Assembly (NCBI RefSeq): GCF_016722925.1
Contig: NZ_JAEQNC010000004.1
Span: 372,001 to 436,000, forward strand
Direction: 5' to 3'
DNA length: 64,000 bases
Origin: Phytoamicus setariae
Lineage (GTDB): Bacteria > Pseudomonadota > Alphaproteobacteria > Rhizobiales > Rhizobiaceae
Both the position numbers and the translations under genes were made by a program. Position 1 is the stretch's first letter; each line of letters starts with the position of its first letter. Positions 15,788-49,262 of this stretch are shown here, piece by piece. The notes under the pieces are model-generated. The model was not told the DNA's origin and ran no database searches. It saw only the letters and a program-made list of their open reading frames with translations.

Positions 15788-16813
15788 CTATCCGATAAAC
15801 GTTCGCTTTGTCCGAAACAGCGGGGGGACACCACGGGCAGCCAGCGCTCCCCATATGCCTCGTTTGTCGATCAGCATGACGGCTATGGCCACCAGGCCCA
15901 TGATTATGAAGTTCCAGGTACCCAAGTCAGCGAGCAACTCACGCAGGACGAAAAACGCGATGACGCCAATGATCGGACCTTCGATCGTGCCGACGCCACC
16001 AATCACGACAATGAATATTACGAAGGCTGTCCAGTCGTTGATGCTGAAGGCGGCATCCGGCGAGATTCGCAGCTTTTGCAGGAAGATGAATGCGCCAACG
16101 ACGGCCGTGAAGCCCGCGACCAGGACGAAAACGATGAACCGGGTCTGCCATATCTTCACGCCCAGAGATTCGCTGGCGATTTCGGAGTCGCGGACCGCGG
16201 TTAGTGCCAGGCCCCAGCGCGAGCGAAGAAGTCGCCAGACCACGAGAATTGAAGCCACGGCAAGTCCCAGCGCGATCCAGTAGAAGATCATTTCACGCAC
16301 ATCGCGGTCGGTGGCAACCGACTTGACGATGTCGGTCGGGATCGAGATCCCGGAGCCGCCGCCGAGGCCGGGAACCTGTCCGGCCAAAATCCTCAGGACC
16401 TCAGCGATCACCCATGTGCCGATGGCGAAATAGGCTCCGCGCAGCCGCAAGGCCAGCCAGCCTATGGGCAGAGCCAGAACCATGGCGACGAGGCCCGCCG
16501 CCGGCAAGGCGAGGAGTACCGGCACGCCCGCCAGCATGGTCAGCGCGAAGAACAGATATCCGCCGACACCGACGAATGCCTGCTGTCCAACCGATACCAG
16601 TCCGGCATAGCCGGCCAGCAGGTTCCACATCTGCGCCAAAGCCAGATAGGAGAGCACTTCCATCATCAACCTCAGCTCTGCGCGGCCGAGAAACAATGGC
16701 CCGGCGAGCAGCAACAGGGTCAGGAGCGCGGCGATTGCGATCGACAATCGCGCCCTCGCCGTCAGTTTGGCCATACCGTCGGTGACCGGTCTTGTTTCGC
16801 TGATCGCGGTCAT
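15788..16813 (-). CDS. branched-chain-type ABC permease, LivM-like
   Basis: 341 residues, polytopic inner-membrane permease of the HAAT (LivM) family, with about nine hydrophobic segments after a 25-residue cytoplasmic leader. The loop AVRDSEIASESLGV is the family EAA-like contact with the ATPase. ATG 16813 overlaps the stop of the LivH-like gene in ATGA; the longer frame to 16963 is rejected. Third or fourth partner of an importer whose other parts follow upstream. Substrate is probably an aromatic acid or phenolic, from neighbours. Confidence 0.9.
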   Translation of the reverse strand: MTAISETRPVTDGMAKLTARARLSIAIAALLTLLLLAGPLFLGRAELRLMMEVLSYLALAQMWNLLAGYAGLVSVGQQAFVGVGGYLFFALTMLAGVPVLLALPAAGLVAMVLALPIGWLALRLRGAYFAIGTWVIAEVLRILAGQVPGLGGGSGISIPTDIVKSVATDRDVREMIFYWIALGLAVASILVVWRLLRSRWGLALTAVRDSEIASESLGVKIWQTRFIVFVLVAGFTAVVGAFIFLQKLRISPDAAFSINDWTAFVIFIVVIGGVGTIEGPIIGVIAFFVLRELLADLGTWNFIIMGLVAIAVMLIDKRGIWGALAARGVPPLFRTKRTFIG

Positions 16814-17679
16814 GGTGTGCCCTTTGACAGAAGCCCCTGCGGTCTTGCGGCAAGGATGGCCAGGAAGATGAGATGTCCGGCGAGCAGCTGGAAACGCGGA
16901 TCGATCTGGCCGCCCACGGTCTGTGCAATGCCGAGCACAATGCCACCCGCAAGCGTGCCCCAAAGGCTGCCGAGGCCGCCTATGATCACCACTTCAAAGG
17001 CAAAAAGCAGCCGGATCGGTCCGGCCGAGGGATCGAAATTCGTCCGCATTGCAAACAGGCCACCGGCGATCGCCACGACGGCAGTGGCGATCGCTGTCGC
17101 AATCGCGAATGTGTGCGCGTTGTTGGCCCCCATCAGCCCCACAGTTTCAGGATCGTCGGCGGTGGCGCGCAGCATCCGGCCGATCGGCGTGTGATAGGAA
17201 ATCAGGCCGAGCAGCAGGATGACGAGGACCGCCGCGGTAAACATCAGCATCGGCAGAGCGCCGATTGCAACATTCGGCCCCAGGCTTAGCGACGCCGTCT
17301 CCAAAGCGCCGGCCGACAGCCGCTGGCTGTTGCCGCCGAAATATTCCAGCAACACATTCTGAAGGACGATGGATAGCCCGAATGTCACCAGCACTGGCGG
17401 CAGGATATCCTGGCCGAGGACACGGTTGAACAGAAAGCGTTGCAAAAGATAACCAGCCAGCGCCATGGCCGGCACGATCAGCAGCACCGCCGCGAAGGGA
17501 TTGAACCCGACGACATCGACCGTACAAAGGGCCATATAGGCGGCGACGACGATAAAGTCGCCATGCGCAAGATTGATAAAGCGCATGACACCAAACATCA
17601 GCGACAGGCCGGCTGCGAACAGCGCATAGAGCCCACCGAGAAGAACACCCTGCAATATCGCGTTGATCCAGACCATCAC
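16810..17679 (-). CDS. branched-chain-type ABC permease, LivH-like
   Basis: 289 residues with eight or so membrane segments and the LivH signature GLYALFAAGLSLMFGVMRFI at the N-terminus. The loop RATADDPETVGLMGAN is the ATPase contact. It couples to LivM by ATGA and begins four bases inside the end of the LivF-like gene, so the block is one transcript. Confidence 0.92.
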   Translation of the reverse strand: MMVWINAILQGVLLGGLYALFAAGLSLMFGVMRFINLAHGDFIVVAAYMALCTVDVVGFNPFAAVLLIVPAMALAGYLLQRFLFNRVLGQDILPPVLVTFGLSIVLQNVLLEYFGGNSQRLSAGALETASLSLGPNVAIGALPMLMFTAAVLVILLLGLISYHTPIGRMLRATADDPETVGLMGANNAHTFAIATAIATAVVAIAGGLFAMRTNFDPSAGPIRLLFAFEVVIIGGLGSLWGTLAGGIVLGIAQTVGGQIDPRFQLLAGHLIFLAILAARPQGLLSKGTP

Positions 17680-18392
17680 ACCGCCTCCCGCACGCCGAAA
17701 TACGCCTCGGAAATCTGCTTCCGCGACAGATTGGCCGGTCTGCCGGTCAGCGACACCCGGCCTTCCTGAATACAGTAGACCCGATCCGATATTGCCAGTG
17801 CCTGACTGATATCCTGTTCGACCACGACGACTGCCGTGCCGTGTTCGCGAATGCGCGGCACGGCACGATAGATGTCCCTGATCACTTTCGGCGCCAGCCC
17901 AAGGCTGAGTTCGTCACAGAGCAGGAGGGCGGGGTTGGACATCAGGGCGCGGCCGATCGCAACCATCTGCTGCTGGCCTCCAGAAAGGGCGGTGCCCGGA
18001 TTGTGCCGCTTTGAGACCAGATCGGGAAACAGCTCGTAAATGCGTTCCAGCGTCCAATGGCCGGAACGGCGGCAATAGGCTCCGGCCTTGAGATTTTCCT
18101 CGACCGAGAGCGAGGCAAACAGTCTCCGGCCCTCCGGCACCAATGCTACCCCAGCCTGAACCGCCTCATACGCCCGCCAGCCGCCACGGTTGACGCCGCC
18201 AACGCGTAGCGTCTGTCCCTTGGATGAGACCTGGCCGGCCAGAGCCTTAAGGAATGTCGACTTTCCTGCGCCGTTGGATCCAATGATGGCGATGGTCTCG
18301 CTTTCGGAGATTTCAAAATCGATCCCAAACAGAGCCTGGAAATCGCTATAAAATGCGCTGAGCGCGCGGGTTTCAAGCAGCGGCGTCGGCAT
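17676..18392 (-). CDS. branched-chain-type ABC ATPase, LivF-like
   Basis: 238-residue ATPase: Walker A GSNGAGKST (about residue 35), signature ALSGGQQQMVAIGRAL, and LLLCDELSLGLAP in place of the usual Walker B DEP. ATG 18392 (MPTPLLETRAL) overlaps the LivG-like end by 20 bases. It energises the permease pair downstream. Confidence 0.92.
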   Translation of the reverse strand: MPTPLLETRALSAFYSDFQALFGIDFEISESETIAIIGSNGAGKSTFLKALAGQVSSKGQTLRVGGVNRGGWRAYEAVQAGVALVPEGRRLFASLSVEENLKAGAYCRRSGHWTLERIYELFPDLVSKRHNPGTALSGGQQQMVAIGRALMSNPALLLCDELSLGLAPKVIRDIYRAVPRIREHGTAVVVVEQDISQALAISDRVYCIQEGRVSLTGRPANLSRKQISEAYFGVREAV

Positions 18393-19113
18393 GATCGTCC
18401 ATTCCCATGTAGATTTGCTGAACCATGTCACTGGCCATGACTTCACGCGGCTCGCCTTCGGCCACCTTGCGACCGTAGTTCAGGACCACCAGCCGATCGA
18501 CGACAGCCAGCAGGGCATGGACGACATGCTCGATCCAGACGATGGCGACACCGCTGGCATGTACCTCGCGGACGGTTGCCACGAGTTGGTGACACTCCTC
18601 CTCGGTCAATCCGCCGGCAATTTCGTCGAGCAGCAACAGTCTGGGCCTTGTGGCCAGCGCCCGCGCCATTTCCAGCCGCTTTCTATCGAGAAGGCGCAGG
18701 CTACCCGCCGGCAGGTTGGCTTTACTGGCGAGCCCGGTGCGATCGAGGATCTCGCCACAGCGTCGCATCGCGTCGCGCTCGCTTTCCCCGCCGCCGAAGA
18801 TCGCGCCGACGAGCAGGTTTTCAAAGACGCTCATGCCGACGAACGGGTGCGGCACCTGAAAGGACCGCGCAATGCCGAGGCGGCAGCGACCGGCGGCATC
18901 CAATCCGGTTATGTCTTGTCCATCATAGAGGATCGTTCCAGCATCTGGCCGCAGGCTCCCGGATACAAGGCCGAAAAGCGTCGACTTGCCAGCGCCGTTC
19001 GGACCGATAATGCCCAGGGCGTCGGTCTGCCCGACGGCGAGATCGACGTTATCGGCGACCTTCACCGCGCCAAAGCTTTTGTTGACGCCGGCAATCTGCA
19101 GCAACTCTCCCAC
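18373..19113 (-). CDS. branched-chain-type ABC ATPase, LivG-like
   Basis: 246 residues: Walker A GPNGAGKSTLF, Walker B LLLLDEIAGGLTEEE, the switch IEH, and LivG-type DITGLDAAGRCRLGIARSFQ. The signature region is unusual: it reads GSLRLLDRKRLEMARAL where LSGGQ-like sequence is expected, as in other LivG proteins with LSYGQ/LPYGD variation. Start taken at GTG 19113, with GGGAGGA eight bases upstream; the nearby ATG is out of frame. First gene of the leftward transporter operon, divergent from the ring-cleavage operon. Confidence 0.9.
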   Translation of the reverse strand: MGELLQIAGVNKSFGAVKVADNVDLAVGQTDALGIIGPNGAGKSTLFGLVSGSLRPDAGTILYDGQDITGLDAAGRCRLGIARSFQVPHPFVGMSVFENLLVGAIFGGGESERDAMRRCGEILDRTGLASKANLPAGSLRLLDRKRLEMARALATRPRLLLLDEIAGGLTEEECHQLVATVREVHASGVAIVWIEHVVHALLAVVDRLVVLNYGRKVAEGEPREVMASDMVQQIYMGMDDHADAAA

Positions 19114-19219
19114 GCATGTTCCTCCCAAAACGCTGCGACCGCATTCAGCACACAGCAGCATGTGTTCGGGAGCAATGCGCAGGGAGGCATCATGTCATAC
19201 CCCGGCGGGGCCGTGCTAA

Positions 19220-19249
19220 GGTATGATCGGATATCAATACAGGTATTGA
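19220..19249. promoter_or_regulatory. inverted repeats in the transporter/dioxygenase divergent promoter
   Basis: GGTAT-GATCGG-ATAT (19220-19234) resembles the GGTAT-N6-ATAC repeats at 24926-24940 and 27180-27195. Partly overlapping it, TCAATAC-AG-GTATTGA (19234-19249) is a perfect 16-bp palindrome that repeats the GGTATTGA half-site seen at 27180. Placed between the LivG start and the dioxygenase ATG, these are the best operator candidates for the cluster's IclR and/or LysR regulators. Confidence 0.6.
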
Positions 19250-19304
19250 GGTTTCATCCAACGACGACCAGCATTGCGATATCGAATACTTTTGGGAGGA
19301 AGAA

Positions 19305-20168
19305 ATGCGAAACGTTACGATCGACAATATTAGCGATGTTGTTATTCACGCGCTTGCCGACGATATCACGCCACGCCGGCGCGAGATCCTGACCAGTTTC
19401 ATCCGTCATGCACACGATTTCTGCCGGGAAGTGAAGATCACCCACGGCGAATGGCTTGAAGCCTGCGAGTTCATGCGCCGCGCAGGCGATATCTCCGACG
19501 AGAACAGAAATGAGTTCATTCTGATCTGTGATATTCTCGGCATCGAGGTTCTGGTCGACATGATCGATCATCCGGTGACCGAGGGCGAGAGCTGTTCGAC
19601 GGTTCTTGGTCCTTTCTATCGCGAAAATCCTCCGGTGCTTCCGAATGGCGCCAGCATCATTCAAAAGGATTTTCCGGATCAGGAAACCGTGCTCGTGCGG
19701 GGTCGCATCCTCGGCACCGACGGCAAGCCGCTCGCCGGCGTCACGATCGATGTCTGGGAAGATGCACCGAACGGCCTTTACGAACAGCAGGATCCGGACC
19801 AGCCGGATTACAATCTGCGTGGCCGGTTCCATTCGGATGCCAGTGGCGATTACAGCTTTGTCGGCATCCGGCCAGTGCCTTATCCGATCCCCTATGACGG
19901 GGCTGCGGGCGAATTGCTCAATTATATGGGCCACCATCCGTGGCGGCCGGGTCATATCCATTTCATGATCACCAAGGACGGCTATCGCCCGCTGATCTCG
20001 CAGATATTCGACTCCGAGACGGAGTATCTCGACAAGGACTCCGTGTTTGCCGTCAAGGAAGACCTGATCGGCGAGCTAAAGAAGGCGCCCGCCGGCTCGA
20101 AGACCGACTATGTCATGGATTTCGACTTCATCCTCAAGCGTGAAGCCATGGCGATGGCGGCCGAATAG
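19305..20168 (+). CDS. intradiol ring-cleavage dioxygenase (hydroxyquinol/catechol 1,2-dioxygenase type)
   Basis: 287 residues. The N-terminal helical domain typical of catechol/hydroxyquinol dioxygenases covers about 1-100 (GEWLEACEFMRRAGDI) and precedes the beta-sandwich catalytic domain. The Fe(III) ligands are visible with family spacing: Tyr159 (NGLYEQQ), Tyr193 (VPYPIP), His217 and His219 (RPGHIHF). It opens the ring between two hydroxyls with O2, giving a cis,cis-muconate or, from hydroxyquinol, maleylacetate. The downstream cycloisomerase-like gene favours a muconate product. Start ATG 19305 after GGGAGGAAGAA; first gene of a five-gene rightward operon. Confidence 0.92.
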   Translation: MRNVTIDNISDVVIHALADDITPRRREILTSFIRHAHDFCREVKITHGEWLEACEFMRRAGDISDENRNEFILICDILGIEVLVDMIDHPVTEGESCSTVLGPFYRENPPVLPNGASIIQKDFPDQETVLVRGRILGTDGKPLAGVTIDVWEDAPNGLYEQQDPDQPDYNLRGRFHSDASGDYSFVGIRPVPYPIPYDGAAGELLNYMGHHPWRPGHIHFMITKDGYRPLISQIFDSETEYLDKDSVFAVKEDLIGELKKAPAGSKTDYVMDFDFILKREAMAMAAE

Positions 20169-20175
20169 CACCCCC

Positions 20176-20201
20176 GTTGCGCCTCCAATCGGGGGCGCAA
20201 C
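20176..20201 (+). terminator. intra-operon hairpin after the dioxygenase gene
   Basis: GTTGCGCC (20176-20183) and GGCGCAAC (20194-20201) form an 8-bp perfect stem with a 10-base loop, followed by TTCCCTTTG. It may reduce expression of the downstream genes relative to the dioxygenase or stabilise the transcript end. Confidence 0.45.
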
Positions 20202-20230
20202 TTCCCTTTGATACTGGAGTAAAGACGAGT

Positions 20231-21403
20231 ATGGCCCTTGCAGTCCCGATGGCGCTGCTCGACGAAAGCGTCTCTTGGCGTGATCTTGCGATCCGCAGCA
20301 TCGCTTCGTCGATCATCGATGCCCCCACAGTGCGCAGGCACAAGCTTTCCAACACCGAGATTTCGAACCAGAACTACGTTCTTGTGCGGGTGATGCTGGA
20401 AAACGGCGTGGAAGGTTATGGCGAGGCGGCCACGCTCGGCGGCCCGCGCTGGGCCGAGGAAAGCGTGGAATCGATCAAGTCGGCGATCGACGTCTATCTC
20501 GCACCCGTGCTGATCGGCCGTCACGCCGCCAGCTTCGAGGAAAATGCTCTGCGACTTTCCAAGGCCGCCAGCCGCAACAATGCCGCTAAGGCAGCAATCG
20601 AGGCGGCGATGTTCGACGCGGTCGGCAAATCGCTCGGCCTGCCCGTGACAACACTTCTGGGCGGCGCCGTCCGTTCCAGCTTCTCTATCATCTGGGCCCT
20701 GGCGTCGGGAGATGCTGGCCAGGAGATCGAGGAGGCGCAGGCCAAGATAGAGCGTCGCGAGCATCGGCGCTTCAAGATCAAGATCGGCTTCGCCGAACCC
20801 AGCGTCGATATTCAGCGGCTGCGCAAGATCCGCACGGCGCTTGGCTCCGACGTCGAAATCATCGTCGATGTCAACCAGGGCTGGAGCGAGGCGACGGCGA
20901 TGCGCTGGATGCCGGCCTTTGCTGATCTCGGCGTCAGCCTGATCGAGCAGCCCCTGCCCGCAGCCCAGATCGAGCAACTCGGCCGCATTGCCGCCCGCAC
21001 CTCCATTCCGATCATGGTGGACGAAGCTGTCTTCACCTCTGCCGAAATTATCCGGGCCGGGCAAGCCGGATCAGGCAGCGTGATTTCGTTGAAGCTGGTC
21101 AAGAGCGGTGGGTTGCTGGAGTTGAAACGGGCCGCAGCCGTGGCCGGCGCGGTCGGCATGGAACTCTATGGCGGCTGCCTGCTGGAAAGCGGCATCGGCG
21201 CCGCCGCCCATCTCGCGGTCTTCTCCACATTGCCCAAGCTCGAATGGGGCACCGAACAGTTCGGACCGAAAATCCTCGCCAACGATCTGGTGCTCGAGGG
21301 ACCGACATTCCGCGACTTCGAAGTGCACCTGGCGCAAGGTCCGGGCTTAGGCATCGTGCTGGACGAAGAGCGCATCAAACACATGACCCGGACGGGAAAT
21401 TGA
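20231..21403 (+). CDS. muconate-cycloisomerase-like enolase-superfamily enzyme
   Basis: 390 residues of the muconate lactonizing subgroup. Cap domain 1-140 has EGYGEAATLGGPRWAEES, a CatB-like substrate loop. Barrel residues are the KIKIG pair (about 181), VDVNQ (about 212), LIEQP (about 238), VDEA (about 263) and SLKLVKSGG (about 287), covering the metal ligands and both catalytic lysines. It should turn a muconate from the preceding dioxygenase into a lactone. ATG 20231 is taken, with TGGAG about 13 bases upstream. A dipeptide epimerase or N-succinylamino acid racemase is less likely because of the neighbours. Confidence 0.88.
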   Translation: MALAVPMALLDESVSWRDLAIRSIASSIIDAPTVRRHKLSNTEISNQNYVLVRVMLENGVEGYGEAATLGGPRWAEESVESIKSAIDVYLAPVLIGRHAASFEENALRLSKAASRNNAAKAAIEAAMFDAVGKSLGLPVTTLLGGAVRSSFSIIWALASGDAGQEIEEAQAKIERREHRRFKIKIGFAEPSVDIQRLRKIRTALGSDVEIIVDVNQGWSEATAMRWMPAFADLGVSLIEQPLPAAQIEQLGRIAARTSIPIMVDEAVFTSAEIIRAGQAGSGSVISLKLVKSGGLLELKRAAAVAGAVGMELYGGCLLESGIGAAAHLAVFSTLPKLEWGTEQFGPKILANDLVLEGPTFRDFEVHLAQGPGLGIVLDEERIKHMTRTGN

Positions 21404-21406
21404 ACC

Positions 21407-21799
21407 ATGAGCAGCGCACCGAACGTCCTGTCGACACTCGAAATGATCGCCGCCCGCCTCGACGACATGCCGCATCTGTTGCGTATGGGCAGCCTGTTCA
21501 GCGAAACCGTGCTGATCGAAATCGATGCGGAGTGTTATTACCTGACATTCCATCGGGGGCATATCGAGTCGATCGCCCATGGTCGGAACCGCAAGACGCC
21601 CTGGCGCTTCGCGATCCGGACCGATGCGGAGGCGCTATCGCGCTTCTGGCAGAAACTGCCAGCGCCGGGATTTCATGACATTTTCGGACTCGTCAAGCTC
21701 GGAAGGGCCAGCATTGACGGCGATATCCTGAGCCTCGTGAAGAACCTGCGGTTCTTCAAGGAGATACTCGCCATACCACGGGATGGACAAACAGCATGA
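21407..21799 (+). CDS. small SCP2-like protein in the aromatic operon
   Basis: 130 residues, no signal peptide. The middle part (VLIEIDAECYYLTFHRGHIESI, split here at 20: VLIEIDAECYYLTFHRGHIE) and the C-terminal GRASIDGDILSLVKNLRFF resemble the sterol-carrier SCP2 fold, where a beta-sheet and end helices enclose a hydrophobic tunnel. It sits three bases after the cycloisomerase and overlaps the hydrolase start by ATGA, so it is made with them. Its position is where a muconolactone isomerase would be expected, but it does not look like CatC. A carrier or lactone-processing role is speculation. Confidence 0.7.
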   Translation: MSSAPNVLSTLEMIAARLDDMPHLLRMGSLFSETVLIEIDAECYYLTFHRGHIESIAHGRNRKTPWRFAIRTDAEALSRFWQKLPAPGFHDIFGLVKLGRASIDGDILSLVKNLRFFKEILAIPRDGQTA

Positions 21800-22671
21800 A
21801 GAGCGTGGTGGAAGACATTGTCGGCCGTTACCTGACCGTTGAAATCGAAGGCAGGTCGCAGCGGATATTTTTCGAGGAAAGCGGCACGGGGAGACCGGTG
21901 CTTTGCCTGCATACGGCTGGCGCGGATACCCGCCAATGGCGGCATATTCTCAACGACCGCGAATTCAGCGCCAATCACCGCATTATCGCCTTCGACATGC
22001 CCTGGCACGGCAAATCGCTGCCGCCGGAGGGCTTCGAGACGGAAGAATACCTGCTGACCACCGACCTCTATATCGAAACAGTGCTGGCCGTCGCCGATGG
22101 CCTAGGGCTCGAAGATCCCATCCTTGCCGGCTGTTCGATGGGCGGCCGCATTGCACTGCAGATCGCAGCCCTTCATCCGGGCCGCTTTGGAGGCTATATC
22201 GCCATAGAAGCGTCGGATTTCCAGCCCGCCTGGTATGATATCGATTGGTTTCATCGTCCCGACGCTCATGGCGGCGAAATGGGTGCGGCCCTGGTTTCCG
22301 CCAACATCGCGCCGCATGCGCCTAACACCGAGCGGTGGAATACGCTCTGGGTGTTTATGCAATCCGGCCCTGGCGTCTTTCGTGGCGATCTCAGTTTCTA
22401 CACGAAGGACGACAGCCTCGTCGGCAATATCGCCAAGATCGACACGACACGTGGCCCAGTGCACATCCTTTGTGGCGAATACGACCTCACCTGCACGCCG
22501 GAGGATGCGACACGAACGCACAGGGCAATCGCCGGTTCCACTCTTGAGATTATGACAGAACTCGGCCATTTTCCGATGAGCGAAAACCCGGTGCGTTTCC
22601 GGCCGTATTTCGCGCGGGCACTGGCGGTCATCACGGGAGGGAAGTCCGCGGTTGGAACTGAAGCGGCTTAA
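21796..22671 (+). CDS. alpha/beta hydrolase (enol-lactonase-like)
   Basis: 291 residues. Nucleophile elbow GCSMGG near residue 114, acid candidate in CGEYDLTCTPED (about 236), catalytic histidine in ELGHFPMSENP (about 257), oxyanion segment LHTAGADTRQW near 37. Cytoplasmic. In the operon it follows the cycloisomerase and SCP2-like genes, so hydrolysis of a lactone made from the muconate is the most likely role; CatD/PcaD enol-lactonases share the fold. It is longer than those by about 30 residues at the N-terminus. Confidence 0.85.
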   Translation: MKSVVEDIVGRYLTVEIEGRSQRIFFEESGTGRPVLCLHTAGADTRQWRHILNDREFSANHRIIAFDMPWHGKSLPPEGFETEEYLLTTDLYIETVLAVADGLGLEDPILAGCSMGGRIALQIAALHPGRFGGYIAIEASDFQPAWYDIDWFHRPDAHGGEMGAALVSANIAPHAPNTERWNTLWVFMQSGPGVFRGDLSFYTKDDSLVGNIAKIDTTRGPVHILCGEYDLTCTPEDATRTHRAIAGSTLEIMTELGHFPMSENPVRFRPYFARALAVITGGKSAVGTEAA

Positions 22672-23560
22672 ATATTTCATCGCCGTGGCCGAGGAACTCC
22701 ACTTCGGCAGGGCGGCCGTGCGCCTCGACATGGCCCAACCACCCCTCAGCCGGCAGATCGGCCAGCTGGAAAAGGATATCGGCGCGCTGCTGTTCGATCG
22801 CTCGCGCAGCCAGATCCGCCTGACCCAGGCGGGCGAGGTATTGCTGCAGCGATCCCGAGACCTGTTTGCCAACCTCGACAGCACTTTTGCCGAGGTGCGG
22901 CGCATCGGCAGCGGCAGCGAGGGCAGGCTACGGATAGCCTTTGTCGGCTCCTCGACCCATGGCGCCGTGCCGACCCTGATCAAGTCTTACCGTTCCCATT
23001 ACGCGGACGTCGATCTCGTCCTGACCGCCATGAACAATGCGGAGCTCAAGCGGGCGCTGATCCAGCGCGAGATCGATGTGGCGATCGCCCGGCCGTCGAT
23101 CGAGGATGACGAGGTCAAGTCGGAATTCCTGCATCACGAACCGCTGATCCTAGCATTACCGGACAATTCGCCGCTCAATTCGCAGGTCCTGCCGAACCTT
23201 GCCGACCTGCGCGAGGAGACATTCATCCTCTATCCGAGCAGTCCCCGGCCGAGCTTTGCCGATTATGTGCTCGGCATCTGCAACGATGCCGGCATCGACC
23301 ATATAAAAAAGGTGATGGCGATGGATTACCAGACGGCTATCAGCCTGGTCTCGGTCGGTGTCGGCGTATCGATCGTGCCGGAATCCGTGTCCGGAACCCA
23401 ACGCGCCGGCGTCAGCTACCGCAAATATGCCGGTCCGAATCCCGGCACGGCATTGTCAGTGAATTATCGGCTCGACAACCGGTCGCCGCAGCTTCGTAAC
23501 TTTGTGGAAATCGCCCGCCGCTATGCGCGCGAGAGCGTGGTCAAGCGCAAAGGCGCCTGA
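22652..23560 (+). CDS. LysR-family regulator of the aromatic cluster
   Basis: 302 residues, starting at TTG 22652 inside the end of the hydrolase gene. The helix-turn-helix covers about 18-37 (LHFGRAAVRLDMAQPPLSRQ), followed by the linker and a periplasmic-binding-protein-like effector domain. It resembles the CatR/BenM group that senses muconate or aromatic acids. Because it is last in the dioxygenase operon, its level should rise with the pathway. It is closely similar to the orphan LysR at 48357-49262. Confidence 0.92.
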   Translation: MELKRLKYFIAVAEELHFGRAAVRLDMAQPPLSRQIGQLEKDIGALLFDRSRSQIRLTQAGEVLLQRSRDLFANLDSTFAEVRRIGSGSEGRLRIAFVGSSTHGAVPTLIKSYRSHYADVDLVLTAMNNAELKRALIQREIDVAIARPSIEDDEVKSEFLHHEPLILALPDNSPLNSQVLPNLADLREETFILYPSSPRPSFADYVLGICNDAGIDHIKKVMAMDYQTAISLVSVGVGVSIVPESVSGTQRAGVSYRKYAGPNPGTALSVNYRLDNRSPQLRNFVEIARRYARESVVKRKGA

Positions 23561-23573
23561 CCACTCCTTTCCG

Positions 23574-24857
23574 TCAACTGATGGCAACCATCTGGCCGCC
23601 GATCGGGATTTCCGGATGATCGCCATTTTCGACGATGGCAAGAACCGGCTTGCCATCCTTGATACTCCACTGTCCGCCGACGAGCGGTGTCTTGGCGATG
23701 TTCGGCACGGGCCCCTTGGAGAAGTCGACCGGCCCGACGATCGACTGATACGATGTCGCCTTGATCGCGTCACGGATCGAGGCCGGATCCGTTGGGTCCT
23801 CGGTGCGCTTGAGAGCATCGAGCGCGACCTCGAACAGCGAATGCTTGAAGGCGAGCGGCATCGTCCAGGGTTGGCCGGTCGATTTTTCGTAATCCGCGGC
23901 GAGTTCGGCCGATGTCTGGCCGGTGAACCCCGACGAGAACGGATGCGACGGGGACCACCAGACTTCGACGGAAAGTCCGTTGCCACGGTCGCCAAGCGCC
24001 TGGATTGGTTGTGGAAATTCCAGGGCTTTGGCAACGGTGACGACTTTCGGCTTGAAGCCCTGCTGGGCCGCCTGCGTCCAGAAGGTCGTGAAATCCGGCG
24101 GAACGACCACGCCGGTGACAATCTCTACACCGGCAGCCTTGAACGCCGAAATCTGGGCGGTGAAATCGTCTGACATGCCCTGGAAGCGGCCGGTATCGAC
24201 CAGTGAGAAGCCCTTTTCTTTCAGGATCGGTGGGAAGCCCAACTTGCCGTCGCCCCAGGCATTGCCGTCCGGATCGTTCGGCCACAGGGCGCCAACCACT
24301 TTCGACGTGTCGGTCTTCGACCACAGTCCAGTGAAAACCGAAATGACGTCCTCGAGACCCCAGAAGAAATGGTAGGTCCATTCAAATCCTTTGGACGGGT
24401 CCCCCTGACGGCCGAAGAAGTGAGGCTGCCAGGGCGTGTCGTTGGTGATGCAGGGAACACCATTCAATTCAGCCTGGTCGGCGACCGGATTGGTGGTGTC
24501 CGGCGTCGAGGTGGCGGTAATGATGTCGACTTCTTCACCAAGGATCAGTTCCTGGGCGACGGAGGATGCGCGATTCGAGTTGGATTGGCTGTCGCGGACC
24601 ACAAACTCGACCGGATGCGTGGCACCGTTGATCTTGATGCCCGAAGCCGTCGCCTTGCGGAACTGTTCAAGCACATAGGCGTCCGGTTGGGCGAATACCG
24701 CGAGCGGACCCGTCGCGGGTGTTACGAAACCTATCTTGATGGTCTTCGGTGCCGAGATCGCCGGCATCGGGAAACTTCCTGCAGCCGTCGCAATGCCAAA
24801 TGCACCGGCGCTTTTCAGCAATCCACGGCGCGAGATTCTTCTGGGGTGAATGATCAT
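23574..24857 (-). CDS. ABC transporter substrate-binding protein, Tat-exported
   Basis: 427 residues. The N-terminus has a twin-arginine signal (RRISRRGLLKSAGAFGIA) ending near residue 36 (AISA-PKT). The rest is a type I periplasmic binding fold of the branched-chain amino acid class (IKIGFVTPATGPLAVF). It is the binding partner for the LivHMGF-type permease at 15788-19113, from which it is separated by the rightward ring-cleavage operon. Tat export suggests it folds before secretion. Its stop is 13 bases from the convergent LysR stop. Confidence 0.9.
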   Translation of the reverse strand: MIIHPRRISRRGLLKSAGAFGIATAAGSFPMPAISAPKTIKIGFVTPATGPLAVFAQPDAYVLEQFRKATASGIKINGATHPVEFVVRDSQSNSNRASSVAQELILGEEVDIITATSTPDTTNPVADQAELNGVPCITNDTPWQPHFFGRQGDPSKGFEWTYHFFWGLEDVISVFTGLWSKTDTSKVVGALWPNDPDGNAWGDGKLGFPPILKEKGFSLVDTGRFQGMSDDFTAQISAFKAAGVEIVTGVVVPPDFTTFWTQAAQQGFKPKVVTVAKALEFPQPIQALGDRGNGLSVEVWWSPSHPFSSGFTGQTSAELAADYEKSTGQPWTMPLAFKHSLFEVALDALKRTEDPTDPASIRDAIKATSYQSIVGPVDFSKGPVPNIAKTPLVGGQWSIKDGKPVLAIVENGDHPEIPIGGQMVAIS

Positions 24858-24925
24858 GGCTTCCTCCTCTTGTCATGACAGGAGGAAGTATTGTTCGATG
24901 CTCCGGCCGGGGACATGCCCCAGAA

Positions 24926-24940
24926 GGTATCTGGCGATAC
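24926..24940. promoter_or_regulatory. GGTAT-N6-ATAC repeat upstream of the binding-protein gene
   Basis: AAGGTATCTGGCGATACGG, with GTAT (24927-24930) and ATAC (24937-24940) as inverted halves, lies about 70 bases upstream of the binding-protein start in the 143-base gap after the flavin-reductase gene. The opposite strand of the site at 27180-27195 reads AAGGTATCGGTCAATACCG, nearly the same sequence. Confidence 0.6.
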
Positions 24941-25000
24941 GGTGGCAAGTTACAAGTGGCGTCAGATTTCCGAGAAATCAGCCAGGCATGCCTGCACTCG

Positions 25001-25555
25001 CTACCAATGGGCACCCTCGAAAGGGAAATCGGCATTCAGGATCGGGTTTGGGTGTTCCTCGTGCAACTTTCCGAACCGGCCACGATGGAATATCAGAGGA
25101 ATGATGTCCGGATTGGCTTGCATCTGCTGAACGCGCCCCACGAAGATTACATGATCGCCCGCATCGACCCTCTGTTCTACTTCGGCCGTGAACACCGAGC
25201 AGGCCTCGCGTGCCACGGGCAGGCCGCCGAGTTGCCGCAGGGGGTCGATGACGTTGTCATCGGGCCGGCCTGCAAAATGCATTGCGGTAGCCTCCGTTCC
25301 GCTCGCCAGGATCGAGACGGCAAACCGCCCTGATTTCGTTATGTAATCCAGCATTCTGGTCTTTTTGGCGATGGATATCGCGATCAGCGGTGGATCGAGC
25401 GAAATCGACATGAAGGCATTCGCCGTCATGCCATGTTCGGTGTCGCCCAATTTCGTGGTGATCACCGTGACCCCGGTCGCAAACCCGCCACAGGCGTTGC
25501 GAAAAGCAATGGGATCAATCCCCTCGGATTTCGCTGCCGCTGCCATCTCTCCCAT
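25001..25555 (-). CDS. flavin reductase (short-chain, HpaC/NtaB family)
   Basis: 184 residues: FRNACGGFATGVTVITTKLG near the start, GMTANAFMSISLDPPLI as the flavin-binding segment and HVIFVGRVQQMQ near the end. These proteins use NAD(P)H to make free reduced FAD or FMN for a partner monooxygenase, here most likely the HpaB-type enzyme at 27321-28874. ATG 25555 follows GGAGG. It is third in the leftward unit IclR, FAD synthetase, reductase. Confidence 0.92.
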   Translation of the reverse strand: MGEMAAAAKSEGIDPIAFRNACGGFATGVTVITTKLGDTEHGMTANAFMSISLDPPLIAISIAKKTRMLDYITKSGRFAVSILASGTEATAMHFAGRPDDNVIDPLRQLGGLPVAREACSVFTAEVEQRVDAGDHVIFVGRVQQMQANPDIIPLIFHRGRFGKLHEEHPNPILNADFPFEGAHW

Positions 25556-25582
25556 GATCCGTCCTCCATGTTAAGTTTTATT

Positions 25583-26185
25583 TCAAAGTGCAGTTCCAGG
25601 CAGGCATCCGGCGTCAGGCCATCCGTGCAGGAGACGTGCCTCTTCGTGCCGGCCTTCGCTGATCAGAGCCCGGAGACGGCTGCTGGAAATTCGCTCGCCT
25701 TCGCAGGCTGCGACATCCGCCAGGATGCGGACCGGAAAGTAGCGGTCCAGCAGGGCCACGTCCCCGAGCCGTTCCTTCCCGAACCGAAAATCGGTGCCGA
25801 CCCAAAGCCCGCGCGGATTGATCCGCCCGAGTTCCTCGATAAACGAAGCTGCCGGGCGCGATGCATAGTCACGGTCAAAACGCGCCATGATGATATGGTC
25901 AACCTCGAACAGACTGAGCCTGCGGATGCGCTCGGCCGGGGGCGTCAACTGGATGACGCGGCCGAGCGCGACCTTGGGCGGGGTTTCGAAAGTATAGACG
26001 ACCGAGGGCACGCCATGCTGTCGGGCCTCGCTGACCACGCGCGCAAGCAGGGCCTGATGCCCGCGGTGAACACCATCGAATGCCCCTATCGTCACAATGG
26101 AGGCCGAAAGCGAAAGTTCACATTCCCGGTGAACAACGGTGCGCGCAAGCGATTGTACTGCCTCTCCGGAATCGAAGCCGATCAT
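25583..26185 (-). CDS. stand-alone FAD synthetase (RibF N-terminal domain)
   Basis: 200 residues matching only the FMN adenylyltransferase half of bifunctional RibF: nucleotide motif TIGAFDGVHRGHQALL near residue 32, LGRINPRGLWVGTDFRFGKE in the middle and the ISSSRLRALI motif near the end. The riboflavin-kinase domain, present in RibF of about 300-plus residues, is missing. ATG 26185 has AAAGGAG ten bases upstream. It lies between the IclR and flavin-reductase genes, so it probably boosts FAD supply for the two-component monooxygenase. Confidence 0.88.
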   Translation of the reverse strand: MIGFDSGEAVQSLARTVVHRECELSLSASIVTIGAFDGVHRGHQALLARVVSEARQHGVPSVVYTFETPPKVALGRVIQLTPPAERIRRLSLFEVDHIIMARFDRDYASRPAASFIEELGRINPRGLWVGTDFRFGKERLGDVALLDRYFPVRILADVAACEGERISSSRLRALISEGRHEEARLLHGWPDAGCLPGTAL

Positions 26186-26189
26186 TCCG

Positions 26190-26990
26190 CTACTCCTTTT
26201 CCCTGTGTCGCCGAGTGCCGGTCGTCTGGCTGCTGGAGGGCGCGGCCGGATCCCAGCCCAGCCGTGCCGAAATCTGGGTCGCGGCCTCCCTGGTAATGCT
26301 CGCATAAGCCCTTGGCTGAGCCTCGTAGCGTGCAACGGGAATGAAGAGGCAAAATGCTCCCATGCAGAAGCCCGCATGATTTCGGATGGGCGCCGCGGTC
26401 GAAGCCAGATCCGGAATGTATTCCCCCACCTCTTCAGCGTAGGCAGCCGCGCTAACTTTGGCGAGCGCTTCTTCCAGCACCGATTTCTGCGTAATTGTGC
26501 GCGAAGTTATCGGCGTGAATTCCATTCGCGCCAAAAGCAATTGCAACGCCGGGGCAGGCAGTTCGGCCAGCAGAACCCGTCCCGGCGCTGTGGCGTGCAC
26601 GGGAGTTGCGGCCGAAATGATATTTCGGGATACTCGGACTGGTGTGTCGCTTTCCTGCGCGATAAGCGAGAGCAGACGCCGGTCCATCAACTCGACGACA
26701 TGGCAGGTCTCGCCGTAGCGACGCGCAAAATCAGACACGATCGATTGCGCGGCGCCAATGATCAGGTCTGTGCTGGTCATGATCTGGCTCAGCGCGGCAA
26801 TCATCGGGCCGAGCCGAAAGCGACCGGGTGCCCTCCTGCGCAAGAGGCCTGTATCCGAAAGCCCATTGAGGACTTCATGCGCTGACGATGTGGCGATGCC
26901 AAGAAGCCGAGCGACTTCGGACGTGCCAAGCTCGGGGCTTGTCAGCGTGAATAGCCGGAGAACTTCTGCGGTTCTTTCCGTGGACTTCAA
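26190..26990 (-). CDS. IclR-family transcriptional regulator
   Basis: 266 residues from a TTG start at 26990, with GAGGGGGG about eight bases before it; the open frame continues to 27551 but into the monooxygenase gene. Winged helix about 1-65 ([20 protein letters not shown]), effector domain after it ([14 protein letters not shown]). It is divergent from the HpaB-type gene and leads a unit with FAD synthetase and flavin reductase. IclR proteins often control aromatic catabolism with ring metabolites as effectors. The repeat at 27180-27195 is a likely target. Confidence 0.88.
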
Positions 26991-27320
26991 AACACCACCC
27001 CCCTCAGGTTTATCAATAACGTCCAACGTGAACAGCGTGCGAACGCGGGCAACCTGCGCTCGGGAAATACCGTCGATGCCGGCGGACCGCCCGCAGGAGG
27101 CAGCATTCTTCCTGCGCTGGATGTCACTCCTGCCGAACACCTTCTTACTCACTATTCGGAAAAAAGGACCTCTTGGCACGGTATTGACCGATACCTTTTG
27201 GAATTTTCGAATTGCGCTATCGATGCCGTCCAGGTTCTGCTCCTCGCGGCGGTCATGGGAAGACCACTGCAACCGATCTCGGGAGAAGAATGCGACAGAT
27301 TTTTTGCTAGGGAGGATATC
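26991..27320. other. divergent promoter region, IclR and HpaB-type genes
   Basis: 330 bases without a supported gene. It contains the GGTAT-N6-ATACC repeat at 27180-27195 and must hold promoters for both directions. Open frames running across it are extensions of the two genes. Confidence 0.5.
27180..27195. promoter_or_regulatory. GGTAT-N6-ATACC inverted repeat upstream of HpaB-type gene
   Basis: GGTAT-TGACCG-ATACC, perfect 5-bp arms, about 125 bases before the monooxygenase start. It shares half-sites and spacing with 24926-24940 and 19220-19234, giving one site in each promoter region of the cluster. Confidence 0.6.
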
Positions 27321-28874
27321 ATGGACGTACATATCGGCAGCAAGACCGCGGCCTATACCGGGGCGGAATATATCGACAGCCTGAAGGATTCTCGTGAAAT
27401 CTACATTCACGGCGAACGTGTCAAGGATGTTACGACCCATCCCGGGTTCCGGAACTCCGTCAGGATGGTGGCGCGTTGGTATGACAAGTTCCATGAGGCG
27501 AAGGACAAGATCGGCGTCATGACCGACAACGGATCGGGCAACCTGACCCACCCGTTCTTCATTGGCGACAAATCCGCCGCGGACTGTGTCAAGAGCCGCG
27601 ATGCGGTCGCGGAACTGCAGCGCGTCGCCTATGGCTGGATGGGCCGTTCACCCGACTACAAGGCGTCGTTTCTCGGGACGCTCGGCGCTAATTCAGGATT
27701 TTACGGCGAGTACGCGCAGAATGCCAAGAACTGGTATTCCAAGTCGCAAGACAGGCTGGACTATTGGAACCATGCCATCGTCAATCCGCCGATCGATCGC
27801 CACAAGGCGATCGAAGAGGTCCGCGACGTATTCATCCATGTCGAAAAGGAAACCGATGCCGGCCTGGTGGTCTCGGGCGCGAAGGTCGTGGCGACCGGCT
27901 CCGCTCTGACGCATTACAATTTCATCGCCCATTACGGCATTCCGATCAAGGACAAGTCATTCGCAGTGCTTTTCACCGCTCCGATGGGCTCGAGCGGCGT
28001 GAAGCTGATTTCGCGGACGTCCTATGAGCTGAATGCAGCAGTCGCAGGTACGCCCTTCGACTATCCGCTGTCGTCACGTGTTGACGAGAACGATTCGATC
28101 CTGGTGTTCGACAAGGTTCTCGTGCCTTGGGAAAACGTCTTCATCAATGGCGATATCGAGAAGCTGAACATGTTCTTCCCGGCATCCGGCTTTGTTCCGC
28201 GCTTCACGCTGCACGGATGCACGCGGCTTGCGGTGAAGCTCGAATTCATCGCCGGACTGTTTTCGAAAGCAGTCGAGGCGACGGGTTCCAAGGATTTCCG
28301 CGGCGTTCAGACGGCGGTCGGCGAAGTCTTGGCTTGGGTCAATCTGTTCAAGGGCCTCAGCGATGCCATGGTGCACAATCCGATCCCTTGGGAAGGCACG
28401 CAGGGCTATGTTCTGCCGAACGTGTTCACCGGACTATCTTACCGCGTCTTCGCGCCCATGGCCTATGGTCGCATCAAGGAACTGATCGAGCGGCATGTTG
28501 CCTCCGGGCTAATCTATCTGCCCGGATCGTCGCTCGATTTCGAAAGCGAGGCAGTGCGCCCCTATCTCGAGCGTTTCGTGCGCGGTTCCAACGGCTATGC
28601 GGCGATCGACCGCGTCAAGCTGCTAAAACTCCTGTGGGATGCGCTGGGTTCGGAATTCGGCGGTCGCCATGAACTCTATGAAACCAACTATGCCGGCAAT
28701 TACGAAAACATTCGCATCGAGACCCTTCTCACGGCCCAGGCGACTGGCCAACTCGATGCGATGCACAAATTCGCCGAAGAATGCATGAGCGAATATGATC
28801 TCGGCGGCTGGACCAAGTCGGACCTGATCAATCCCTGGGACGTCAATGTCCTGAAGGCCGTCGCCAAAATGTAA
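27321..28874 (+). CDS. HpaB-type FADH2-dependent aromatic hydroxylase
   Basis: 517 residues of the 4-hydroxyphenylacetate 3-monooxygenase large-component family, which also includes resorcinol and chlorophenol hydroxylases. The core ([33 protein letters not shown]) and the C-terminal [15 protein letters not shown] are typical. It adds a hydroxyl next to an existing one using FADH2 delivered by the reductase encoded at 25001. ATG 27321 (MDVHIGS) has GGGAGGA; the frame upstream to 27198 is promoter DNA. It would feed a catechol-type or hydroxyquinol-type product to the ring-cleavage operon. Confidence 0.92.
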
Positions 28875-47256: not shown

Positions 47257-47988
47257 ATGGCGAACACTCGGTCTCGCGCAACGTCCAACGAGACAGAAAC
47301 CGTTTCCCTCAGTGAGGAAACCATCGTCGAGTGCGCCCTCGGCCTTGCGCAGGACCTCGGGCTGCGGGGGCTGACGGTGCGGCGCATCGGCCAGGAGCTT
47401 GGCGCCGATCCCACGGCGTTCTATCGTTATTTTCGGGATAAGGACGAGCTTTTGCTCGCATGCATGGATCGAGTAATCGACCGGGCCTTCGATCGTTTCT
47501 TGAGCCAATCCAAGGGGCTAAGTGCGCCGCGTGATTGGCGTGAGATGATGCGCATCAGTGCACATGCCGTTTGGACAACGTCTCGCGAATATCCCGCCAT
47601 AACGGCGGCGTGCTTTTCACGCGTGACGGGTCGGGCTGCTGAACTGAGATGGGTGGAGTTCTACATCAACATCCTCTCGGGGCTTGGGCTCCGGCCAGAT
47701 GATGTCATACTCTGCTATCGCACCCTGGTTGACGCAGTTCTGTCTTTCTCCGCCCTTCGGGTGACGGTCGAAACCCTGCCGGAACCGGCAGCTAAAAAGA
47801 ATGTGTCTGCCTGGTCCGCGGTCTATGGCGCAGTCGATCCCGCAAAATACCCGATGATCTCCAGTCATTCCAAAGAGCTGCAATCCGTCAAGCCAGAAGC
47901 CATCTTCGAAGTCGTGATCGATTCAATCCTCGATAGAATTGAAACGATATCCAGGCCCGTGGCAAACTTGTCGGCTGAACCCAGATAG
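47257..47988 (+). CDS. TetR-family regulator of the amine operon
   Basis: 243 residues. The N-terminal helix-turn-helix is about 22-68 (LTVRRIGQELGADPTAFYRY), followed by a helical effector domain, including a TetR_C-type segment around AVWTTSREYPAITAAC. Start ATG 47257. Divergent to the aldehyde dehydrogenase gene, with the 33-bp palindrome in between, so it is the likely local repressor, released by the transported amine or its metabolite. Confidence 0.9.
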   Translation: MANTRSRATSNETETVSLSEETIVECALGLAQDLGLRGLTVRRIGQELGADPTAFYRYFRDKDELLLACMDRVIDRAFDRFLSQSKGLSAPRDWREMMRISAHAVWTTSREYPAITAACFSRVTGRAAELRWVEFYINILSGLGLRPDDVILCYRTLVDAVLSFSALRVTVETLPEPAAKKNVSAWSAVYGAVDPAKYPMISSHSKELQSVKPEAIFEVVIDSILDRIETISRPVANLSAEPR

Positions 47989-48356
47989 GGGTGAGGATGA
48001 ACCGAACCGCGGCAAGCAGTGCTGAGTGATGAGGAAGCGCGCGTCAGTATCACTAAATACCGTAGCCAGTATTGTCGGCGTCGCTGGCAAAGACATAAGC
48101 TATCGCCAGCCCTGCGTATGAGGAGGTTTGCGCAGCGAAGGACCCGAAGCGAGGAGGCGTGCACGTAACGCGCCCATCAAAATGCCTGACGTGGTTGGTT
48201 CACCAGGGGACTTGTGGTGCCTCACCGATCCACAAGTCGGTGGCGTATGCTATCCGTAGAAGGTTTGTCCGCCAGGCAAAAAAACAGTAATAGGTTCATC
48301 TTTCTGGCGTGAAATTCGGTGTGGATTCTTCGAGAAAACTCCAGGCTGGGAGATAA
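47989..48356. other. gene-free stretch between TetR and LysR genes
   Basis: 368 bases. A 30-codon frame around 48030-48120 has no ribosome site and unlikely composition. The right end should hold the LysR promoter. Nothing else recognised. Confidence 0.4.
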
Positions 48357-49262
48357 ATGGAAAGTCCTCAAATAAAAGATCTCGTATATTTGTTGACCTT
48401 GTCAGAAGAACTGCACTTTGGTCGTGCAGCAGAACGACTGGGTATTGCTCAACCACCTTTGAGCCGGCGTATACAGCAGATCGAGGAGGATTTAGGGGTT
48501 CAACTTTTCAATCGTGGTCGCAGCAGCATAACGCTCACCCAAGCGGGCGAAGCCTATAGCCAGCGAGTAGCAGCGATCTTGCAGGATATTGACGATGCCC
48601 GGCTTGAAGCCCGCCGCATCGGTCAGGGTGCAGAAGGCCGATTGCGTATCGGATTTGTGGGGTCGGCGACTTACGGGGTCTTGCCGACGATTCTAAAATC
48701 CTTTCGATGTGATTTTCCACAGATCAGCCTCAGCTTGACCCCTATGAACAATGCAGGGCTGCGGAGAGCGTTGATCCGGCGCGAGATCGACATTGCTATA
48801 GCACGTCCGCATATAAAGGATGCCGAGATCATTTCCCGTCCGTTGATGGAAGAGAGATTAATTCTTGCAGTTCCGGACATTCATCCACTGGCAGAAAGAC
48901 GAGAAGCTCGGCTCGACGAAGTGACAAACTGTCCCATCATACTTTACCCTGAAGCGCCTCGTCCAAGCTTTGCCGACACAGTCATTGATATCTTTCAATA
49001 CCGCGGCCTAGATCTGAGTGACCGCGTATTCGCCATGGATTTTCAGACTGCGATTTCGCTCGTTTCGGTTGGGGAGGGAGTTTCGATAGTCCCGGCGTCA
49101 GTGGGAGAAGCCGAGCGCAAGACTATACGTTACATTGGTATCGACGATGAGCGGGCAACGACAAGAATTTCTCTCAACTTCCGCATCGATGCGCAAAGCA
49201 TACATATCCGAAGATTTGTCGATCTTGCCTTGGGCGCAGTACGGACATCAATTAATAAGTGA
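48357..49262 (+). CDS. LysR-family regulator, orphan paralogue
   Basis: 301 residues with ATG 48357 behind GGGAG. Helix-turn-helix about 19-38 (FGRAAERLGIAQPPLSRR). It matches the LysR at 22652-23560 through most of its length, for example EGRLRIGFVGSATYG, LTPMNNAGLRRALIRREIDI and DFQTAISLVSVGEGVSIVPAS. Base composition is less GC-rich than its neighbours. No catabolic operon adjoins it and an IS30 remnant lies immediately downstream, so its targets may be elsewhere or lost. Confidence 0.9.
   Translation: MESPQIKDLVYLLTLSEELHFGRAAERLGIAQPPLSRRIQQIEEDLGVQLFNRGRSSITLTQAGEAYSQRVAAILQDIDDARLEARRIGQGAEGRLRIGFVGSATYGVLPTILKSFRCDFPQISLSLTPMNNAGLRRALIRREIDIAIARPHIKDAEIISRPLMEERLILAVPDIHPLAERREARLDEVTNCPIILYPEAPRPSFADTVIDIFQYRGLDLSDRVFAMDFQTAISLVSVGEGVSIVPASVGEAERKTIRYIGIDDERATTRISLNFRIDAQSIHIRRFVDLALGAVRTSINK

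Follow-up and report, generated by a model that had tools for sequence, protein, structure and literature searches.

In this work, a stretch of 64,000 nucleotides of Phytoamicus setariae DNA (contig NZ_JAEQNC010000004.1, positions 372,001 to 436,000; hereafter the window) was analysed for an inverted repeat, GGTAT-N6-ATACC, which recurs in the promoter regions of a gene cluster for aromatic degradation. The repeat very probably serves as the binding site through which a single LysR-type regulator switches the pathway on, and we put the probability of an operator for a LysR-type activator at about 0.82. The original prediction had described three sites and ascribed them to one regulon run by the local IclR or LysR protein. 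The single regulon is supported by conservation of the repeat in orthologous promoters. Judged from sequence, it is best assigned to the LysR-type protein encoded at 22652–23560, not to the IclR-type protein, and it is probably shared with a LysR paralogue encoded at 48357–49262. That this is a known kind of regulon, the LysR type, with an unusual operator spacing, is well supported.

The three predicted sites are all present, at 19220 (GGTATGATCGGATAT), 24926 (GGTATCTGGCGATAC) and 27180 (GGTATTGACCGATACC). The pattern GGTATN6ATAY has six oriented matches at five places in the window, against 0.16 expected from shuffles, and at least six were reached in 0 of 100 shuffles. At up to one mismatch, GGTAT-N6-ATACC stands before window genes five times (19186, 19220, 24926, 27180 and 48046), which adds two sites to the three, one at 48046 (AGTATCACTAAATACC) about 300 bp upstream of the second LysR gene, and one at 19186 (GGCATCATGTCATACC), the partner of the 19220 site within one divergent promoter. 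A match at 48987, within the second LysR gene, is probably due to chance.

Related clusters were collected by protein similarity and not by motif, using the LysR protein in named genomes, LysR or the hydroxylase in other genomes, and the hydroxylase and LysR in plasmids. The plasmid records were hand-picked for diversity ahead of any motif search in them (hydroxylase matches H1, H4, H9, H13 and H15 of 162 records, later H14, H21 and H27; LysR matches H41 and H55 of 35). Twenty-eight stretches were scored, L029–L039 without L033, and L057–L074 (L labels stretches and G genomes). Those that are named belong to the alphaproteobacteria, except L037, labelled Enemella evansiae, the cluster of which closely resembles the ones in the Rhodobacterales records L035, L038 and L039. 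Dropped were L033 (same contig as L061), L040 (27% identity), L041–L045 (short copies of regions in L066, L060, L067, L068 and L069) and L046–L055 (short copies of the window and of L057–L065); L056, a second, 60% hydroxylase of G464, was left unscored. Related sequences are not independent, and the conservation counts are descriptive.

The dyad stands before cluster genes in 28 of 28 scored stretches, in L069 as an AGTAT/ATACT variant, and also in L118 and L119. Loss of the motif from genomes that keep the cluster had been named beforehand as a point that would count against one regulon; it was looked for, and 30 of 30 related clusters keep the dyad. The hydroxylase promoter carries it at up to one mismatch in all 23 scored relatives that have the hydroxylase, L063 and L064 included. 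Alignment of orthologous promoters, as originally proposed, gave each of the three sites counterparts before the same kinds of genes. At the dioxygenase promoter, the counterparts of 19220 are GGTATGATCTCATATC in L029 and GGTATGATCGCATATC in L119, of the form GGTATGATC-NN-ATATC. At the binding-protein promoter, 24926 corresponds to an exact dyad in L066 and to a weaker one in L058 (two mismatches, GTAT-N6-ATAC). L057 and L070 also have a site in the gap after the flavin-reductase gene, where the next gene is the dioxygenase gene in these two and the binding-protein gene in the window. Paired operators of the divergent-promoter kind occur in L063, L064, L068, L069 and L072 too. The dyad was not found at three hydroxylases of about 60% identity that have no close LysR in their stretch, namely L056 (none at up to one mismatch in its 4.5 kb) and the 62% hydroxylases of L115 (Thermus) and L116 (Rhodococcus).

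The spacing of the dyad is exact. Across 29 stretches (602 kb), the window included, GGTAT-Nk-ATACC occurs 36 times at k = 6, a count that takes in 27180 itself, and 0–1 times at each of 16 other spacers; 35 of the copies lie in or at clusters and one (L059:6244) is apparently unrelated. The opposite order, ATACC-Nk-GGTAT, has one exact copy at N5, six at N6 and none at N7. A third half-site, GGYAT, follows exactly six bases past the dyad in 21 of 120 flanks, against 0–2 at each other offset from 0 to 29 (both flanks of 60 sites at up to one mismatch, some of them intragenic). The full operator in the relatives reads GGTAT-N6-ATACC-N6-GGYAT and continues into a –35-like TTG. The last T of the third half-site opens this TTG or a TCG, and the G is present in 19 of 21 aligned sites. 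A –10-like hexamer NANNNT (A at 2, T at 6) begins at position 50 in 11 of the 21 and at position 51 in seven, against 0–3 at other positions from 34 to 79, which in most of the aligned sites is 17–18 bases from the –35-like triplet. Because the aligned third half-sites and –10-like hexamers keep constant positions, dyad, third half-site, –35 and –10 are in a fixed register. By sequence, this arrangement agrees with the layout of LysR-type promoters, with a recognition site upstream and an activation site near –35.

Four operators of the window have the third half-site at no or one mismatch. The operator toward the ring-cleavage dioxygenase operon (19220–19246, + strand) consists of the dyad GGTATGATCGGATATC (19220–19235) and GGTAT (19242–19246), which runs on into TTGAGG, with CAGCAT 17 bases further. 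The second operator of this divergent promoter (19175–19201, – strand; GGTATGACATGATGCC with CGCAT) faces the ABC-transporter operon, which has an ATG with a ribosome-binding-like stretch at about 19115. Toward the periplasmic binding protein lies the operator at 24915–24941 (– strand; CGTATCGCCAGATACC with GGCAT and a –10-like AATACT), and upstream of the second LysR gene that at 48046–48072 (+ strand; AGTATCACTAAATACC with AGTAT). The perfect dyad at 27180–27195, between the IclR gene and the hydroxylase gene, has a third half-site on neither flank and is given no strand. The 19.2-kb site had been called the weakest match. This is correct for its core, but the variant is conserved in L029 and L119, being kept in Phyllobacterium and Rhizobium jaguaris, and, unlike the 27.18-kb palindrome, it has a third half-site.

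A LysR-type regulator with HTH_1 and LysR_substrate domains is encoded in or near the cluster, and a LysR relative (E ≤ 1e-40) was found in 13 of 13 cluster-bearing genomes. In an alignment of 18 LysR proteins that includes both paralogue types, none of the 18 shows any variation in the recognition region (HFGRA...AQPPLSR). An IclR relative (E ≤ 1e-15) was present in eight of the 13, in five of these eight solely outside the cluster stretch; G582 has a weaker IclR match within the cluster besides. That the IclR-type protein encoded at 26190–27023 binds the repeat and runs the whole regulon is very improbable. Its gene is divergent from the hydroxylase gene with the perfect palindrome in between, and an IclR adjoins the site in eight of 28 scored stretches, among them L062 and two stretches that contain no close LysR, L065 and L074. 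However, the site is not confined to places where an IclR is present, since 20 of the 28 have it without one (matches of at least 28% identity) and five of the 13 genomes (91–100% complete) keep it without an IclR relative at E ≤ 1e-15. The Thermus stretch L115, where a 32% IclR relative adjoins the hydroxylase and no such LysR occurs in 7.2 kb, has no such dyad. Moreover, IclR-bearing hydroxylase promoters carry a separate palindrome beside the dyad, TTTCCGGYATTRCCGGAAA or TTCGGWATTTTCGAA. The former is exact in L065, L071, L073 and L074, with three mismatches in L072 and L062; the latter is exact in L057 and L070, where the closest IclR proteins are encoded, and has one mismatch in the window (TTTGGAATTTTCGAA, 27197–27211, + strand), which we regard as a candidate IclR operator. 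Because of these sites without IclR, the separate palindrome and the Thermus case, IclR was rejected as the sole binder. Of the two regulators originally offered, LysR is favoured by its presence in 13 of 13 genomes and by the CatR/ClcR-type pentamer, and IclR is disfavoured by its absence (at E ≤ 1e-15) from five site-bearing genomes and by a separate palindrome of its own. In a scan for the IclR palindromes elsewhere, matches with two to three mismatches were found in L029, L031, L057, L065, L068, L071, L073 and at window position 38629, against four places for the reversed control, and no such palindrome was found in any IclR-less hydroxylase promoter. The perfect 19-bp TTTCCGGYATTRCCGGAAA, a candidate operator of this IclR subfamily, lies between the IclR and hydroxylase genes at L065:10377, L071:9886, L073:9821 and L074:9856, 7 bp from the dyad.

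It is also unlikely, if somewhat less so, that both proteins use the repeat, with LysR acting at most promoters and the hydroxylase promoter bound by IclR, either by itself or together with LysR. The third half-site (up to one mismatch) is missing in nine of nine IclR-bearing hydroxylase promoters, the window included, and present in 11 of 15 IclR-less ones (Fisher 0.0006, uncorrected for relatedness), and the IclR palindrome is 7 bp from the dyad in five of five cases (L065, L071, L072, L073 and L074). On the other hand, the dyad has the same sequence with and without IclR, and the separate palindrome would be enough to place that protein. Furthermore, since every one of the 11 third half-sites points toward the FAD-synthetase side, gene order may account for the difference. 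The idea that the repeats are chance palindromes draws on their genome-wide frequency, the 16-mer being no commoner than its backwards control (55 and 68 places, respectively, for GGTATN6ATACC at up to one mismatch in the source genome). It is contradicted by the spacing control, by the conservation of the exact spacing in orthologous promoters and by clustering, and its probability is close to nil. Six of the 55 places lie between window positions 19186 and 49002 (19186, 19220, 24926, 27180, 48046 and 48987), and four fall in the 8 kb that hold the three predicted sites, against 0.08 expected (Poisson 1.5e-6, for a region chosen after the fact).

A genome-wide regulon was rejected, given the lack of any excess of the 16-mer over the backwards control. 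Elsewhere in the genome there is just one more perfect copy of the palindrome, at C36:150666; it overlaps a TGGTATACCA palindrome upstream of a gene that appears GntR-like by eye. The three-part pattern at up to two mismatches gave 17 matches in the source genome, against five for the control, four of them in the cluster. Equal matches at many unrelated promoters had been named as a point that would weaken the prediction, and this check was run in part: three other one-mismatch matches of the three-part pattern exist, and each lies in a long open frame. By eye, the protein encoded around one of them is flagellar-hook-like; similarity places another in an ABC ATPase, and at the third two long frames overlap. 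Two of the three are in recognisable coding sequence. Open-frame cover does not discriminate in this GC-rich DNA, where open frames cover the window's sites as well, and it is a weak argument for chance, also for the six non-cluster matches below. Among 379 genomes of the family, the exact three-part pattern was found at six places in five genomes, six of six in these clusters. Among 392 genomes of the order there were 10 matches, four at clusters (G387 being new) and six in 3-kb loci without cluster genes, about equal to the 6.1 expected by chance when 4.2 Mb per genome is assumed. G237 belongs to both samples, and the backwards control has no match in the rows of either list. A class-wide search with a longer pattern gave 0 of 385 in a sample in which cluster presence was not checked.

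Several observations weigh against the assignment to a LysR-type activator. The source genome has the three-part pattern only in copies with one to two mismatches; the exact form is lacking in four of nine hydroxylase-bearing family genomes (the source genome, G582, G600 and G709), and in the order sample it occurs in three of six genomes found by LysR. In two stretches, L065 and L074, such a LysR is missing. For L065 the genome has one on another contig, and for L074 a partial match (76% of the query) lies on another Paracoccus yeei plasmid of the same source type. In L062 the LysR has only 40% identity. L117, the Xanthobacter autotrophicus Py2 plasmid, encodes a 57.6% LysR and has neither aromatic genes nor the site in 12.9 kb. 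The conserved dyad is T-N10-A and not the T-N11-A of LysR sites, and its half-sites are ordered opposite to those of CatR and BenM. Finally, a generic sigma-70 scan of 18.9–27.4 kb returned 0 promoters, against 2.6 in shuffles. As a separate observation, the LysR relative of L117 (6001–6870) is located behind lyase-type genes.

We hypothesize that a LysR dimer binds the GGTAT-N6-ATACC dyad, the centre of which is predicted at about –54 from the transcription start. The second dimer of a tetramer would touch the third half-site GGYAT, one helical turn on, leading into the –35 element. With inducer, which is probably the aromatic substrate or a ring-cleavage product, the complex would activate the promoter. 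Within the window it would act on the dioxygenase and ABC-transporter operons, on the binding-protein gene and, perhaps, on the second lysR gene. The dioxygenase operon seems to end in lysR itself, and positive feedback may result. The hydroxylase promoter is probably under both LysR and IclR, because it has a dyad without the third half-site and an adjoining IclR-type palindrome. A broader proposal, tentative and at somewhat less than even odds, is that this LysR subfamily reads an 11-bp-periodic operator of three half-sites (GGTAT-N6-ATACC-N6-GGYAT into TTG) with reversed polarity and a sequence-defined activation half-site, that two modules of different descent, each with a LysR paralogue, merged into one regulon as both read this operator, and that sites at hydroxylase genes with a neighbouring IclR gene lack the activation half-site and are accompanied by an IclR palindrome. 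The operator is testable for an aromatic pathway of rhizobia, Xanthobacter, Sphingomonadales and Rhodobacterales. It would tie uptake to ring hydroxylation and cleavage, and could serve as a clear-cut example of a LysR activation half-site whose position is defined.

The cluster begins with genes for ABC-transporter ATPases and permeases of the branched-chain type (15788–19161, – strand). Divergent from these are the genes for an intradiol dioxygenase (19305–20168), the closest solved relatives of which by sequence are PnpC and hydroxyquinol-type dioxygenases, a muconate-cycloisomerase-family enzyme (20177–21403), a 130-amino-acid protein (21407–21799), an enol-lactonase-like alpha/beta hydrolase (21796–22671) and LysR-type regulator 1 (22652–23560), all on the + strand. 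The LysR 1 gene is probably the last of the dioxygenase operon, because it overlaps the end of the hydrolase gene. The – strand encodes the periplasmic binding protein of an ABC transporter (23574–24857), a flavin reductase (25001–25555), an FAD-synthetase-family protein (25583–26185, with the start inferred at ATG 26185 in an open frame listed to 26377) and, before the last two in reading direction, the IclR-type regulator (26190–27023, start approximate), which scores 90.7 bits against NCBIfam TIGR02431, under the cut-off of 284.75. The + strand encodes an HpaB-type flavin-dependent phenol hydroxylase (27321–28874) and LysR-type regulator 2 (48357–49262), 51% identical to regulator 1. No maleylacetate reductase was found among 20 window proteins scanned with Pfam. 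The 130-amino-acid protein has no match in Pfam, NCBIfam, PHROGs or PDB sequences, and its predicted fold resembles SCP2 sterol-carrier proteins and UbiJ (Foldseek E 7e-6). It occurs in 16 of the 28 scored relatives, with the operator before its gene in nine of these 16. The pairing of a hydroxyquinol-dioxygenase-like with a muconate-cycloisomerase-type enzyme (19305–21403), found in the window and 21 of the 28, seems unusual. The literature search returned no paper describing this cluster among the matches listed.

By comparing the loci seen, LysR 1 and its operon are closest to Phyllobacterium sp. YR531 (81–88%), and the hydroxylase (94%), IclR (71%), FAD-synthetase (70%) and flavin reductase (78%) to a Xanthobacter dioxanivorans plasmid. 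The LysR of this plasmid is the counterpart of LysR 2 (76.5%), and the 48046 operator resembles the dioxygenase promoter of its cluster (AGTATCACACTATACC). No dioxygenase-gene remnant was detected at 47980–48360 by comparison with L070, L029 and L057, and the approximately 285 bp between the 48046 operator and the second LysR gene have no similarity to the X. dioxanivorans cluster. The simplest reading may be that two modules sharing an operator were combined. On the X. dioxanivorans plasmid (L070:13467–15227), an ISPme1 transposase gene splits the end of the hydroxylase gene from the rest.

A search for six exact forms of the motif returned no paper; its coverage did not extend to alternative notations or to most subscription journals. 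In LysR-type promoters the recognition site lies near –65 and the activation site near –35 (PMC5603801), and the introduction of that paper states that no conserved motif was identified for such activation sites. The operators of the LysR-type regulators CatR, ClcR and TfdR have the consensus AkACC-N5-GGTAT, with recognition and activation binding sites (RBS and ABS; PMC6449761). The operator described here has in common with them the half-site pentamer GGTAT/ATACC, a strong dyad with an activation site, and control of intradiol ring-cleavage genes (PMC6449761). In contrast, its dyad reads GGTAT and then ATACC at N6 (T-N10-A), and ATACC-N6-GGYAT arises here only from a dyad arm and the third half-site. 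The BenM/CatM site is ATAC-N7-GTAT (PMC6628147), and the main dyad here has neither this arrangement nor ATACC-N5-GGTAT. Among PDB sequences, LysR 1 is closest to 7w06 (2.8e-50), named only as a LysR-family regulator, and next to BenM (8.5e-47), with which it shares the AQPPLSRQI segment. BenM and CatM, themselves paralogues, recognise similar sites and can in part substitute for one another (PMC6449761). Two LysR paralogues are likewise present here, although half-site order and spacing differ. The pathway of OccR is opine catabolism, a different one from that considered here. OccR is reported to bind a T-n10-A variant (PMC12609908), and the present dyad has this T-N10-A spacing. The window IclR and its aromatic setting are like those of the PcaR/PcaU/PobR-type IclR regulators; its candidate operator here is a palindrome other than the dyad.

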